This document shows, piece after piece, positions 14,169-34,949 of a DNA stretch of 64,000 nt. This stretch comes from Pseudooceanicola marinus (lineage in GTDB: Bacteria > Pseudomonadota > Alphaproteobacteria > Rhodobacterales > Rhodobacteraceae). Under the pieces are notes generated by a model, which saw only the letters and a list, made by a program, of their open reading frames with translations, was not told the DNA's origin and made no database searches. How positions within the stretch are numbered: position 1 is the stretch's first letter; every line of letters starts with the position of its first letter. The stretch covers positions 682,001 through 746,000 of the forward strand of contig NZ_JAIVMC010000001.1 in assembly GCF_020177265.1 (NCBI RefSeq), written 5' to 3'. Made by a program: the position numbers and the translations under genes.

Positions 14169-14681
14169 ATGACCCATCTGCTCACCGGTCTGCATCGCCT
14201 GACCCTCTGGCTGTGCACGGCCCTTGCCGTCGTGATCATCTGCGCCCTGACCGTCCAGATCACCTCGCGCTACGTCTTCAACGCGCCCGTCCACATGACC
14301 GATGACATCGCCGAGGTGTCGCTGATCTGGCTGACGTTCCTGGGGGCCGCCGTGGTCTATCGCGAAGGCGGCCATATCGGCCTCGACCTGATGAGCGACC
14401 TGAAGAACCAGGCCCTGCGTCGCGGTCTGCAGATCTTCCTGCACCTGTGTGTGATCGGCGTCCTGCTCTACGCGCTGACCCAGGTCCAGGCGCTGAAACC
14501 ACTGATGTCCCGGCTCGACTTCGGCACCCTGCCCCGCAGCCCCTTCACCTCGAAGTTCGCGCTGATCGTCCTGCCCTACGGCATCGGAGCCGGGCTGACC
14601 GTGATCTTCGCCATCGAGGCCATCGTCAACGAATTGCGCGGCCGCAACGATACGCCCGGCACCAACAAGGCCGTCCAATGA
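14169..14681 (+). CDS. dctQ: TRAP transporter small permease
   Basis: A 170-residue DctQ-type membrane protein with four hydrophobic segments (about residues 13-35, 48-70, 87-109 and 128-150). The family motif of an acidic SLIWLTFLGAAVVYREGGHIGLD region (about 54-76) is present. It forms the membrane complex with DctM, whose ATG overlaps this stop codon by 4 bp, implying translational coupling. Confidence 0.92.
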   Translation: MTHLLTGLHRLTLWLCTALAVVIICALTVQITSRYVFNAPVHMTDDIAEVSLIWLTFLGAAVVYREGGHIGLDLMSDLKNQALRRGLQIFLHLCVIGVLLYALTQVQALKPLMSRLDFGTLPRSPFTSKFALIVLPYGIGAGLTVIFAIEAIVNELRGRNDTPGTNKAVQ

Positions 14682-15967
14682 CCACTGCCATCTTCCTGAT
14701 CCTCTTCTTCGGCCTGCTGATCCTCGGCCTGCCGGTCGCCTATACCATGCTGGTGACCTCGGCGATCTACATCCTGATGACCGGCCTGCCCGAGATCCAG
14801 CTGACCATGCGCGCCGCGGGCGGCATCGAGAGCTTCTCGCTGCTGGCGATCCCGATGTTCCTGCTGGCCGGCAACCTGATGAACGGCATGGGCGTGACCG
14901 AGCGGATCTTCAACTTCGCCGGCGTCCTGGTGCGCCACATCACCGGCGGCCTGGGCCACGTCAACGTTGTTGCCTCGATCCTCTTCGCCGGCATGTCCGG
15001 CTCGGCCGTGGCCGACGCCGGCGGCCTCGGCTCGGTCGAGATCAAGGCGATGGAGAACGCGGGCTATTCCAAGCGGTTCTCGGCCGCCGTCACCGCCGCC
15101 TCCGCCACCATGGGCCCGATCATCCCGCCCTCGATCACCCTGGTCGTCTATGGCTTCCTCGCCGAGGAATCCGTCGGGCGCCTGTTCCTCGGCGGTGCCC
15201 TGCCGGGCCTGCTGTCGGGCTTCGGCCTGATGGTCATCGTCTACCTGCTGGTGAAAAGCGGCCACGAAACCGCCCCGCGCCTGCCGCGTGCCAGCCGTCA
15301 CGAGGTCTGCCGGGCCTTCTGGCGCGCCCTGCCCGCGCTGATGGCCCCGGTCATCCTGCTGGGCGGTATCCTGGGCGGTGTCTTCACCCCCACCGAGGCC
15401 TCCGTGGTCGTCGTGGTCTACATCCTCATCATCGGCACCATCTCGATGGGCTTCAGCCTGCCGCAGATCCGCAACGCCCTGCTGGGTACCGTGCGCACGG
15501 CCTCCTCGACGCTGTTCATCATCGCCGTCTCCGCCGTCTTCGGCTGGATCATCTCGATCCAGCGCCTGCCGGTCGAACTGGTGACGCTGATGGAAGACCT
15601 CTTCGTGTCCAAGGCCGCCGCCATCGCCGTGATCATCGTGATCCTGCTGGTCGTCGGCATGTTCATGGAGGTTCTGGCCGCGCTGGTGCTGCTGGTGCCG
15701 ACGCTGCTGGCCATCGCCGCCAGCTTCGACATCGACACCGTGCACCTGGGCGTGACCGTGGTCGTGACCATGATGATCGGCACCATCACCCCGCCCGTCG
15801 GCCTCGTCCTCTATACGGTGATGTCGGTCTCGGGCGTGCGCATGGGCGAGCTGACCCGCTCCCTGGCGCCCTTCTACCTGGCGATGGTCATCGTCGCCCT
15901 GCTGGTCGCCTTCATTCCGCAGATCACGCTTTTCCTTCCGAACCTGCTGATGCCGACCGCTCAGTAA
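14678..15967 (+). CDS. dctM: TRAP transporter large permease
   Basis: A 429-residue DctM protein with about 12 hydrophobic segments, the ion-coupled translocation subunit. Typical blocks are ETLPVAYTML-like (GLPVAYTMLVTS, about 16-27), the AGMSGSAVADAGGLGSVEIKAM region (about 104-125) and ATMGPIIPPSI (about 144-154). The C-terminal GTITPPVGLVLYTVMSVSG (about 367-385) is also conserved. The ATG at 14678 overlaps the dctQ stop. Downstream, hyuA begins after 36 bp, so transporter and hydrolase are very probably one transcript. Confidence 0.95.
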   Translation: MTTAIFLILFFGLLILGLPVAYTMLVTSAIYILMTGLPEIQLTMRAAGGIESFSLLAIPMFLLAGNLMNGMGVTERIFNFAGVLVRHITGGLGHVNVVASILFAGMSGSAVADAGGLGSVEIKAMENAGYSKRFSAAVTAASATMGPIIPPSITLVVYGFLAEESVGRLFLGGALPGLLSGFGLMVIVYLLVKSGHETAPRLPRASRHEVCRAFWRALPALMAPVILLGGILGGVFTPTEASVVVVVYILIIGTISMGFSLPQIRNALLGTVRTASSTLFIIAVSAVFGWIISIQRLPVELVTLMEDLFVSKAAAIAVIIVILLVVGMFMEVLAALVLLVPTLLAIAASFDIDTVHLGVTVVVTMMIGTITPPVGLVLYTVMSVSGVRMGELTRSLAPFYLAMVIVALLVAFIPQITLFLPNLLMPTAQ

Positions 15968-32380: not shown

Positions 32381-32467
32381 CCCGTGATGCCTGCATCACG
32401 GGCAGCGCCCGACCCGCCGCCCCCCAGGGCGGGCGCTACACGCCCCCCCTCGGGCCGGGCGCTGCCC
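32381..32467. repeat. Structured intergenic element with nested hairpins
   Basis: Between cysS and cimA lie a perfect hairpin CCCGTGATGC-CT-GCATCACGGG (32381-32402) and an overlapping longer inverted repeat GGGCAGCGCCCG (32400-32411) with CGGGCGCTGCCC (32456-32467), whose interior can fold again through GCGCCCG and CGGGCGC. There is no T-run. It could be the cysS transcript end or a REP-like mobile repeat; the gap (32234-32486) holds no gene. Confidence 0.6.
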
Positions 32468-32486: not shown

Positions 32487-33854
32487 TCACAGCAAACCTT
32501 CCAGCTTGGCCGCGTCGAAATCGGCGCCGGGCAGAAGCTCCACCCCAGCCTTTGACATGCGCACCTCGACCCCGGCGGCAATCAGCGCCTGTTTCATCGC
32601 GTCGACCTTGGAGAAATCCTTGGTCTGCAAGGCCTCTTCGCGGGTCGCGGCCAGTGCCTCAGCGTAGGTCGAAAGGTCCGCCTGCGGCGCCTCGGCCCAG
32701 CTTCCCAGCTCCTCCGTCAGCAGCCCGAGGAACTGCGCCGAGGCCTTCAGCTCCGCCGCATCGCCTGCGCCTGCCAGCTTGTGCAGCTCGGCCACGGCGC
32801 CGGCGGTGTTCAGGTCGTCGGCCAGCGCCGCCACGACGGCCTCCGAAACCTCGCCCGCCTCGACGCCCGCGACCAGACCACGCCACTTGCGCAACGTGGC
32901 CTCCGCCTCGGCGCGCTTCTTCTCGGTCCAGTCCATCGGCTTGCCGTAGTGCGTCCCGAGGAACACCATCCGGATCACCTCTCCCGGCACGCCCTGATCC
33001 AGCAGATCCCGCACGGTAAAGAAGTTGCCCAGCGACTTGGACATCTTCTTGCCCTCGACCTGCAGCATCTCGTTGTGCAGCCAGTAGTTGGCGAACTTCC
33101 CCTTCGGATGGGCGCAGCAGCTCTGGGCGATCTCGTTTTCGTGGTGCGGGAACTGCAGGTCGATGCCGCCGCCGTGGATGTCGAAACTGTCGCCCAGAAG
33201 CTCATAGCTCATGGCGGAGCATTCGATGTGCCAACCCGGACGCCCCCGGCCCCAGGGGCTGGCCCAGCCCGGCGTACCCTCGTCCGAGGGTTTCCACAGC
33301 ACGAAATCCATCGGATCGCGCTTGTAGGGCGCGACCTCGACCCGGGCGCCGGCGATCATGTCCTCGACCGAGCGGCCCGACAGCCCACCGTAGGCCTTGT
33401 AGCTGTCGACGGAGAAGAGCACGTGGCCCTCGGCGGCATAGGCGTGGCCCTGGGCGATCAGCATCTCGATCATGGCGATCATCTGGCCGATGTATTCGGT
33501 CGCGCGCGGCTCATGGGTGGGGCGCAGGGTGCCGAGGGCGTCCATGTCCTCGTGATACCAGGCGATGGTCTCATCCGTGATATCGCGGATCTTGCGGCCC
33601 GTGGTCTCGGCCTTGGCGTTGATCTTGTCGTCGACGTCGGTGAAGTTGCGCACATAGGTCACATGCTCGGGCCCGTAAACATGGCGCAGCAGGCGATAGA
33701 GCGCGTCGAAGACCACCACGGGACGGGCGTTGCCCAGGTGGGCGCGGTCATAGACCGTGGGACCACAGACATACATCCGGACGTCGGCCGCGTCGATCGG
33801 CTCGAACGGCTCCTTCTTGCGCGTCTTCGAATTGTGCAGCCTGATCTCGACCAT
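32487..33854 (-). CDS. cysS: Cysteinyl-tRNA synthetase
   Basis: A 455-residue class I aminoacyl-tRNA synthetase. The HIGH-like motif is in [16 protein letters not shown] (about 30-45), zinc ligands are Cys30, the Cys in GWHIECSAM (about 214) and the His pair in LQFPHHENE (about 238-246), and [10 protein letters not shown] (about 271-280) is the KMSKS loop. The ATG at 33854 has GAGGAG five bases upstream. That ribosome site can pair with CGCTTCCTCG at 33927-33936, and a 15-codon frame with two Cys codons lies further upstream, so expression may be sensed through Cys-tRNA supply. Followed by cimA on the same strand. Confidence 0.97.
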
Positions 33855-33858
33855 GTCT

Positions 33859-33936
33859 CGCTCCTCGACGGTCCCGTGACGGGGTTTGCCCGCGGGCGGC
33901 TTATCAGGATGTTCCGGATCAGGAAACGAGGAAGCG
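33859..33936 (-). promoter_or_regulatory. Candidate translational attenuator of cysS
   Basis: In the RNA, CGCUUCCUCG (33936-33927) can pair with CGAGGAGCG (33867-33859), nine base pairs with one bulged U, burying the GAGGAG ribosome site of cysS. The pairing partner begins 17 bases after the stop codon of the upstream peptide frame at 33953. A CCCG-TCA-CGGG hairpin and a CGCGGGC/GCCCGCG stem lie in the loop. This is the layout expected for ribosome-stalling control. Confidence 0.5.
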
Positions 33937-33952
33937 GCCCGCGAGAGAATTC

Positions 33953-34000
33953 TCAGCAGGGAATGATGCAGCCGGTAATGATGGCGATCATGTGCTTCAT
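33953..34000 (-). CDS. Putative 15-residue leader peptide of cysS
   Basis: The frame encodes [15 protein letters not shown] followed by TGA. Two of the last five codons are TGC (Cys) and the final sense codon before the stop is Cys. AAGGA lies 8 bases upstream of the ATG, better than chance placement. It starts 59 bp beyond the stop of the phosphoesterase gene and ends 98 bp before cysS. I infer a regulatory leader whose translation stalls when Cys-tRNA is scarce; the product itself probably has no function. It is too short to be supported by coding statistics. Confidence 0.5.
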
Positions 34001-34059
34001 GCGCCGATCCTTAGCCTGTCGGGCCGGGCCTGCCAAGGGGGATGATGCACCCCGCGCGG

Positions 34060-34845
34060 TCAGAGATGCCCCAGGGTGACGGCGCGGGCCCAGTCCTCGC
34101 GCCCCTCGGCGCGGGCACGGGCGGCCATGGCAGTGCTGTCGTAGGGGACATGGCGATGGCTGACCTGCCACCCTTCAGCCCGGCGTTCGACCAGGGCATA
34201 GCTGGCCAGCGGGTGCCCGGCGGCCACCACATGGGGCACGGGCGCCGTGTCGTTGTAGGCCGGGCAGCCGACCGAGCCGGGGTTCAGGAGCATCTGGCCC
34301 GTGGACAATGCCCAAAGACCGGGCAGATGGGTATGGGCGCAGATCAGCAGGGGCGCGGTGGTGCCGCGGGCCTCCTCGGCCATGTCCTGCGGCGCGCGCA
34401 GCTGCACCTGACCGTCGTCATCCACCCCATGGGTCCAGTAGCGGTCATCGGCGCGGGGCGTGGCGTGCCAGGCCTGCACGTCACCGAAATCCAGCCCCTC
34501 GGGCAGCCCGGCCAGCCAGCGGAAGGCGGCGGCGTCGAGCGCCGCATGGGCGACCCGGTCCGACGGCCCCAGGGCGGAAGCTGGCCCTTCCAGAAGGTAA
34601 CGATCATGGTTGCCACGCAGGGCGTGACAGTCCAGCGGCAGCAGCAGCTCGGCCGTGCCGGCCGCATCCAGCGGGCCGGAGAAATGGTCGCCCAGCACCA
34701 GCAGCGCCGCCGAGGCCGGCAGCACCAGCCGCAGATCCGCCAGCACCGCGCGCAGGGCGTCGCTGTTGCCGTGCACATCGGCCAGCACCGCGAAGCGGTC
34801 GGGCAGCGCGGGGCGGGGTTCCAGGGAAAGAAGCGGGCCGGTCAT
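34060..34845 (-). CDS. Calcineurin-like metallophosphoesterase (YfcE/MJ0936 type)
   Basis: A 261-residue metal-dependent phosphoesterase. Metal motifs are all present in order: FAVLADVHGNSDALRAVL (DxH, about 18-35), LVLGDHFSGP (GD, about 47-56), ALRGNHDRYLL (GNHD, about 73-83), LLICAHTHLPGLW (GHTH-like AHTH, about 167-179) and LLNPGSVGCP (about 188-197). Likely a cytoplasmic phosphodiesterase or phosphatase of unknown substrate. ATG 34845 gives the family length. It is upstream of the cysS leader in the same direction. Confidence 0.92.
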   Translation of the reverse strand: MTGPLLSLEPRPALPDRFAVLADVHGNSDALRAVLADLRLVLPASAALLVLGDHFSGPLDAAGTAELLLPLDCHALRGNHDRYLLEGPASALGPSDRVAHAALDAAAFRWLAGLPEGLDFGDVQAWHATPRADDRYWTHGVDDDGQVQLRAPQDMAEEARGTTAPLLICAHTHLPGLWALSTGQMLLNPGSVGCPAYNDTAPVPHVVAAGHPLASYALVERRAEGWQVSHRHVPYDSTAMAARARAEGREDWARAVTLGHL

Positions 34846-34949
34846 GTCAGCAGCCTGACCCGCGGACCCGGTCCGAGACAAGCGCAAAAACCCTTGCACC
34901 ACGGCCCGCTCTGCCCGACGCTCCGCCCAAGAGCCGACAGGAGAGCCCG

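Follow-up and report, generated by a model that had tools for sequence, protein, structure and literature searches.

The minus strand of the window, by which is meant the whole 64 000-nucleotide stretch analysed here, carries in succession a promoter, a short upstream frame (uORF, 34000–33953), a U/C-rich stretch and the cysteinyl-tRNA synthetase gene cysS (Table 1). The nearest named relative of this cysS is from Marivivens (78%) and the other top relatives are Rhodobacteraceae by title, names that would place the window cysS within the order Rhodobacterales. The gene upstream of the leader (34060–34902, minus strand) gives a weak match to a YfcE-like phosphodiesterase that falls below the family cut-off. 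Just past the cysS stop, at 32400–32467 on the minus strand, the interval that separates cysS from the citramalate synthase gene cimA contains a long inverted repeat rich in G+C (GGGCAGCGCCCGGCCCG ... CGGGTCGGGCGCTGCCC, with a single mismatch, identified by eye) and without a U run.

Table 1. Positions of the features of the cysS leader region in the window.
Feature	Position	Strand	Remarks
-35 element TTGGCA, uORF promoter	34031..34036	minus	TTG(G/A)C enriched in 131 regions
-10 element TAAGGA, uORF promoter	34008..34013	minus	From logo and window geometry; contains AAGGA 34012-34008
uORF, 15 codons and stop	33953..34000	minus	Predicted leaderless; Cys at -5 (internal) and -1 (terminal)
P1, stop-codon hairpin	33938..33960	minus	CCUGC and GAGA of the uORF end paired with UCUC and GCGGG
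A strand CUCGCGGGC	33937..33945	minus	Common to P1 and the A:B helix
Pyrimidine/U-rich tract CGCUUCCUCGUUUCCU after A	33921..33936	minus	Includes the segment 33936-33927
-35-like TTTCCT, second promoter	33921..33926	minus	Window copy of the family motif, read from the sequence
Extended -10 TGATAAGCC, second promoter	33898..33906	minus	Adjoins B; predicted start near 33891, inside B
B strand GCCCGCGGG	33889..33897	minus	Partner of A
Shine-Dalgarno (SD) GAGGAG of cysS	33861..33866	minus	Read from the sequence
cysS, cysteinyl-tRNA synthetase	32487..33854	minus	NCBIfam TIGR00435, E=2.6e-129

The leader peptide and its conservation

The original prediction had placed a 15-codon frame ending in Cys upstream of cysS, and its coordinates and strings are correct: the frame runs from 34000 to 33953 on the minus strand, with TGC as the last sense codon. 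Its conservation was assessed in 149 regions comprising 29 GTDB loci (one from Cohaesibacter, the other 28 labelled as Rhodobacteraceae or placed near them), 120 of at least 192 family genomes with a cysS match and the window, minus one region (L193) that is cut at a contig end. A Cys-containing uORF of 9–16 codons lies upstream of cysS in 131 of these 149 regions (window included), whereas the same detector finds three on the reverse strand and, over 20 rounds, a mean of 2.1 and at most four in shuffled sequences. This rules out a chance origin of the uORF and bears out the peptide-frame conservation on which the original prediction had staked its leader. The other 18 regions have no recognised uORF at the expected place, although in L026, which is among them, a uORF lies farther upstream. 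Five questionable uORF calls (L106, L107, L113, L177 and L198) stay inside the 131 and were removed to give a set of 126, from which six more, with no recognisable A or B anchor, were removed to give a set of 120.

The uORF is 13–14 codons long in 117 of the 131 regions and ends in TGA in 124. Together the 131 frames contain 375 Cys codons (343 TGC and 32 TGT), and 94 of them contain a tandem Cys pair; the window uORF lacks the tandem and has single TGC codons at -5 and -1. Counted from the stop, Ile occupies -3 in 118, Cys occupies -4 in 82 and Cys occupies -5 in 93 of the 126 sequences. Position -1 holds Cys in 63 of them, Arg in 33 and Gly in 13. A terminal Cys acting as a conserved sensor, as originally proposed, is at odds with these counts, the last residue being Cys in only 63 of the 126 sequences and the internal residue at -5 in 93. 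Across the family the uORF end within P1 is mostly CC-NGC-TGA, and since TGC (Cys), CGC (Arg) and GGC (Gly) all retain the pairing GC, RNA structure accounts for the terminal Cys better than sensing does. The last codon would serve the P1 hairpin rather than sensing, and the sensing codon is probably an internal Cys.

A covariance model built from 79 relatives, with the window left out, matches the window leader with 66.2 bits (E=2.3e-15). At E<=0.1 it also has matches in 128 of 149 family genomes, a few of them weak (e.g. E=0.058, 0.024 and 0.018), a count that is not independent, since the searched genomes overlap the training set. The model identifies no other convincing leader in the window's own genome. 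A candidate paralogous leader there (L352 1501–1632, minus strand, contig C13; E=1.1e-4) lies opposite a Met-rich frame, in antisense orientation, and probably resembles the leader by chance; a match at G138 C13 17794–17925 has the same length and a similar score. Six weaker own-genome matches range from E=0.26 to 2.7, and another lies at 14678–14789 of the window (E=0.037). An Rfam search of the window produced no match at gathering score and no T-box element upstream of cysS, and a local search returned one unrelated family (E=2.3).

RNA helices and promoter-like motifs

The strand GCGGGC can pair either with the end of the uORF, as in the P1 hairpin, or with a downstream GCCCGC roughly 37 nt further on, as in the A:B helix, and this arrangement is conserved in the family. 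P1 folds with a mean z of -3.30 over 120 sequences (-3.32 in the window) and the A..B region with a mean z of -2.42 (-2.48 in the window), compared with 0.00 and -0.33 for two control regions. The interval between A and the cysS ATG behaves in folding as a control does (mean z -0.33, 120 sequences), and the leader from 34010 to 33820 folds no better than shuffles (z +1.21).

In an alignment of 79 sequences chosen by hand from 113 references of suitable length, 92.7% of the A:B cells are paired, against at most 49.7% in slid versions, and both sides are changed in four of seven pairs, a number reached by one of 500 shuffles. Of the 79 sequences, 29 have C-G and 27 have G-C as the outermost A:B pair. 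For P1, 84.2% of the cells are paired, against at most 47.7% in slid versions; two of nine pairs are double-changed, which does not exceed the shuffled level (at least as many in 292 of 500 shuffles), while double-change cells number 14, versus 5.2 in shuffles. RNAalifold run on the same alignment with no structure given predicts six A:B pairs and nothing else, P1 being absent, and its covariation term is near zero. Exchanging strands between sequences weakens both helices, from -16.58 to -15.04 kcal/mol for A:B and from -12.25 to -10.81 kcal/mol for P1 (n=120); A and B were located by a helix search that favours A:B in absolute terms, and these swap and slide comparisons are less affected by that preselection, though not free of it. 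The loop between A and B measures 32–41 nt in 115 of the 131 regions, with extremes of 19 and 51. In six loci (L093, L097, L125, L182, L184 and L189) an extra short hairpin appears by eye to be inserted between the uORF stop and A.

A logo anchored on the uORF ATG (131 regions) contains TTG(G/A)C at -36..-31 and TA at -13/-12 or -12/-11, and C precedes the ATG at -1 in 86% of the regions. Positions -10 to -5 have no more than 0.17 bits and show no purine run. The window promoter has a 17 nt spacer and a discriminator of 7, and a 17 nt spacer with a discriminator of 6–7 nt is found in 93 of 126 sequences, while six of the 126 lack the TA; this count requires TA and keeps the best-scoring spacing among several, and so leans towards a promoter model, which the logo does not. 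From this geometry transcription should start at or beside the A of the uORF ATG, and the uORF message would be leaderless. The AAGGA at 34012–34008, originally read as a ribosome site, overlaps the -10 hexamer TAAGGA of this conserved promoter, and the purine signal that such a reading would call for is missing from the family.

A second promoter-like motif, TTTCCT-N17-TAAGCC (33926–33898), precedes cysS in the window. When 121 sequences are anchored on B, TTT appears at -27..-25 and TTGCTAAG at -8..-1, at a fixed distance and with little conservation of the bases between. The pattern TTNNYN-N16..18 (with TGn)-TA is found in 74 of the 131 regions with a uORF and in 12 of the 18 without one, compared with 1.2% of shuffles, and 11 of the 12 uORF-less matches have a 17-nt spacer. 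Regions that have a uORF carry a B-like TA-YCCGC more often (84 of 131) than regions that lack one (four of 18; Fisher P=0.0014). The 12 uORF-less regions are L005, L021, L024, L114, L123, L127, L136, L145, L147, L185, L195 and L197; three of these (L123, L145 and L147) keep GCCC(C)GC beside the motif and are perhaps recent losses of the leader. A cysS start downstream of 33953, which had been held in advance to speak against a leader, is thus predicted in part, at the second promoter (near 33891).

A model for the leader and its alternatives

The uORF, P1, A:B and the promoter-like motifs are conserved by computational comparison. The original prediction of a short Cys-containing leader peptide adjoining an RNA switch upstream of cysS holds in this respect, and such a unit very likely senses charged tRNA-Cys. 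That the leader works as a cysteine-responsive ribosome-stalling attenuator appears to us somewhat better than an even proposition. Transcription would begin at the uORF ATG, as the promoter geometry indicates, and ribosomes would load on the leaderless message. With sufficient Cys-tRNA the ribosome would reach the uORF stop and leave, the uORF end and A would fold into P1 with the U-rich tract behind it, and most transcripts would end there. With scarce Cys-tRNA the ribosome would pause at the internal Cys codon at -5. A ribosome with its A site on this codon should cover the message up to about the last uORF codon, which is the 5' side of P1. The leading edge of the paused ribosome should thereby free A, transcription would go on and A would pair with B. 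The downstream second promoter would provide basal cysS expression independent of the leader. The interpretive parts of this scheme are stalling, the direction in which control acts and the choice of termination as main output.

At least five T in eight follow A in 72% of the 120 sequences, versus 5% of shuffles, and the window has four T in eight. Modelled stalling raises the probability of A:B from 0.16 to 0.35 as a mean of the 120 sequences; the window value goes from 0.35 to 0.55 (from 0.26 to 0.69 with another 3' end). Several observations speak against an attenuator. The window lacks the tandem Cys codons typical in the family, its own U-tract is weak and a terminator scan of 33700–34200 found none. 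The second promoter would bypass the leader, and 18 of the 149 regions have no recognised uORF at the expected place. P1 overlaps the stop codon, so that a terminating ribosome also hides P1 for a while. Moreover, A:B lies downstream of the U-tract and so cannot itself prevent termination at that tract.

A function for A:B, which termination leaves without one, would be supplied by translational attenuation, in which P1 sequesters A, the cysS ribosome site is covered by other pairings and stalling lets A:B free the site. On modelled stalling the probability that the SD is unpaired does rise in the window (from 0.22 to 0.59), in a locus of the same genus (L111; 0.24 to 0.51), in L025 (0.22 to 0.59) and in L110 (0.50 to 0.80), but it moves the wrong way in L002 (0.59 to 0.16). 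Over the 120 sequences the stalled state exposes the SD more than the terminating state (mean +0.041, se 0.012; a change of more than 0.1 is upward in 25 and downward in 10), but against the free state the gain is only +0.017 (se 0.011; 16 up and 12 down). The pairing of B with the SD is slightly better for own than for swapped strands (-10.60 against -9.70, rank 0.41), yet the stretch from B to the ATG folds only weakly better than shuffles (z -0.71; +0.29 in the window), and the mean effect on SD exposure of A being present rather than absent, +0.037, is reversed in the window (0.43 and 0.49). B as a general anti-SD that A frees or blocks was rejected as weak (rank 0.41, with exposure changes of +0.037 and +0.017). 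Since SD exposure is flat on average and goes up in the window and L111, termination is favoured as the main output; translational attenuation through the P1/A:B switch is unlikely, although not negligible, and the modelling makes SD release possible in the genus of the window.

The original prediction had the terminal Cys codon stall the ribosome beside a dedicated anti-SD, CGCUUCCUCG. Its segments CGCTTCCTCG (33936–33927) and CGAGGAGCG (33867–33859) can, by eye, form 9 bp with one bulged U; the duplex of the segments around these positions, at -14.8 kcal/mol, ranks first among the 120 sequences, and the pairs have probabilities of 0.21 to 0.43 in the free window leader but 0.05 with modelled stalling. 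The sequestering pairing can thus form in the window. It is not conserved in the family: in place of compensatory change, own pairs of CGCUUCCUCG with the SD are no better than swapped ones (-8.21 against -8.34 kcal/mol, mean rank 0.515, n=120), and the folding of the region is at control level (mean z -0.25; +0.40 in the window), so that the anti-SD was rejected as a conserved element. With the last residue being Cys in half of the 126 sequences, as given above, this form of the model is very improbable; the pairing is possible as a species-specific feature and, given the drop in pairing on stalling, may be one way in which the window species closes its ribosome site.

The second promoter motif is located between A and B, and 12 of the 18 regions that have no uORF retain it, as might be expected if the upstream transcript acted mainly on that promoter by interference or occlusion, with P1 and the U-tract shielding it from read-through. 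This would leave the conserved Cys codons and the double changes in A:B unexplained, and we regard it as improbable. Covariation alone cannot separate an RNA helix from a DNA repeat, and B adjoins the -10 region, so A and B might also constitute an inverted repeat, an operator around the second promoter; the spacing between A and B, however, varies (32–41 nt in 115 of 131, with extremes of 19 and 51) and A pairs with the uORF end as well, which makes an operator the least probable of the explanations considered.

Distribution and relation to known systems

Beyond the family set, 60 class-level regions were fetched, together with loci from further searches. Among 50 cysS loci of other groups, 15 contain a Cys frame of some kind, in several cases a clearly poor one. 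A rule requiring a promoter plus a uORF selects 27 candidates in 178 loci (including Rhodobacteraceae, repeats from one locus and poor ones) and none of the 178 on the reverse strand; in 26 further loci it selects two. Clear cysS uORFs are found in Rhizobium (MKTVTCIICRKIIR and MKTVICIICRKIIR), Ensifer (MKTVICIICRKIIR), Mesorhizobium (MKTSFAICGICIIG), Phyllobacterium (MKTSSVTIITCRIIIS), Bosea (MTRAAINNRICIICR), Bradyrhizobium (MNGHLEICSICREIIS), Stappia (MTTATRNRISILIICS) and Cohaesibacter (MKTVFAHLCCIIGQIIIH), and in a further genus (L232–L234; MKTAATIWCICCTIIIS), as well as in Devosia (MKTKCTIIACIITC), whose frame passes a relaxed promoter rule only. The genera named here belong to Hyphomicrobiales. 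Most of the other loci scanned beyond Rhodobacterales have no such uORF.

Most of the uORFs outside Rhodobacterales have a TTGAC-type -35 and an ATG 6–8 nt after the -10. In 19 chosen non-Rhodobacteraceae sequences the stop is TAG (17) or TAA (two) and lies in a hairpin, typically GCTAGC..GCTGGC; the 19 were picked by hand, most of them through a rule demanding a stop-codon hairpin of -8 or better, so that the hairpin is partly selected for, and they are not independent, L047/L057/L062, L067/L069, L232–L234 and L060/L328 looking like near relatives. The A:B region of these sequences has a mean z of 0.95; the helix is clear in L056, L060 and L328 and unconvincing in at least L043, L047, L057, L062 and L329, so its presence outside Rhodobacteraceae is suggestive only.

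We give an even chance to a broader proposal, that a leaderless cysS attenuator is older than Rhodobacterales and shared with Hyphomicrobiales. In it a uORF starting at its ATG and a three-strand switch (uORF end, A and B) would control one of two tandem cysS promoters, combining an unregulated basal supply with a cysteine-tuned one, as an alphaproteobacterial counterpart, probably convergent, of a mycobacterial type described below. If so, two large alphaproteobacterial orders would tune the cysteine-charging enzyme through the speed at which its own product is used. The regulatory message would begin with a start codon, making leaderless translation an amino-acid supply device outside Actinobacteria, and one short sequence, one amino acid and two tandem promoters would offer a ready test system. 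Two corrections would also follow: the motif would not be confined to Rhodobacterales, and the sensor codons would be internal, with the last codon serving the hairpin.

Transcription attenuators of the trp/his type combine a leader peptide that contains control codons with two RNA helices that exclude each other. The cysS leader resembles them in the Cys codons of its leader peptide and in the alternative helices P1 and A:B, but differs in that its terminator-like hairpin overlaps the uORF stop and is followed by an imperfect U-tract, with the alternative partner situated beyond that tract. Translational attenuators of the erm type, the analogy drawn in the original prediction, link leader-peptide stalling to ribosome-site access; here SD exposure is no consistent result of modelled stalling across relatives, being predicted in the window and L111 but not as a mean of the 120 sequences.

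The original prediction regarded a cysS attenuator in Rhodobacteraceae as undescribed, but the leader matches uORFC-8-2 of Brewer et al. (2021; PMC8632094), so that the central part of the finding has already been published as a prediction. The paper gives 145 examples, exclusively upstream of cysS in Rhodobacterales, with an AUG-started uORF, conserved Cys codons (usually in tandem, mostly codons 14–15), two prominent stems and a 3' U run, and independently proposes that tRNA-Cys charging is sensed through stalled ribosomes, with transcription attenuation as the outcome. The window leader is likewise directly upstream of cysS and has an AUG-started uORF with Cys codons. It departs from that account in several respects. 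Here the Cys pair most often occupies positions -5 and -4 of a 13–14-codon frame, and the window uORF is without the tandem, which we treat as usual rather than defining. The two stems may correspond to P1 and A:B, the two supported helices here, which share strand A; the U run may have its counterpart in the T-rich tract (at least five T in eight in 72% of 120, four in the window, where the terminator scan is negative). The word 'leaderless' does not occur in the main text of that paper, and neither a second cysS promoter nor a strand common to two alternative helices is found in its available part. As far as the literature searched extends, the leaderless promoter geometry, the second promoter, the strand common to two helices and the wider spread are new.

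The nearest functional parallel, by analogy, would be the mycobacterial Cys-rich leaderless uORFs. Leaderless poly-cysteine short ORFs lie upstream of cysteine-related genes in mycobacteria, according to Shell et al. (2015; PMC4633059), and a Cys-rich leaderless uORF has been described as a cysteine-responsive attenuator there (Canestrari et al., 2020, as cited in PMC9031893). The cysS leader resembles this type in its Cys-containing uORF, and promoter geometry predicts that its transcript would likewise begin at the ATG. The contiguous Cys codons of the mycobacterial type are present in 94 of the 131 uORFs but not in that of the window, and the phylum, the genes (e.g. cysA2) and the sequence are different; the target here is a tRNA synthetase, with a P1/A:B switch.
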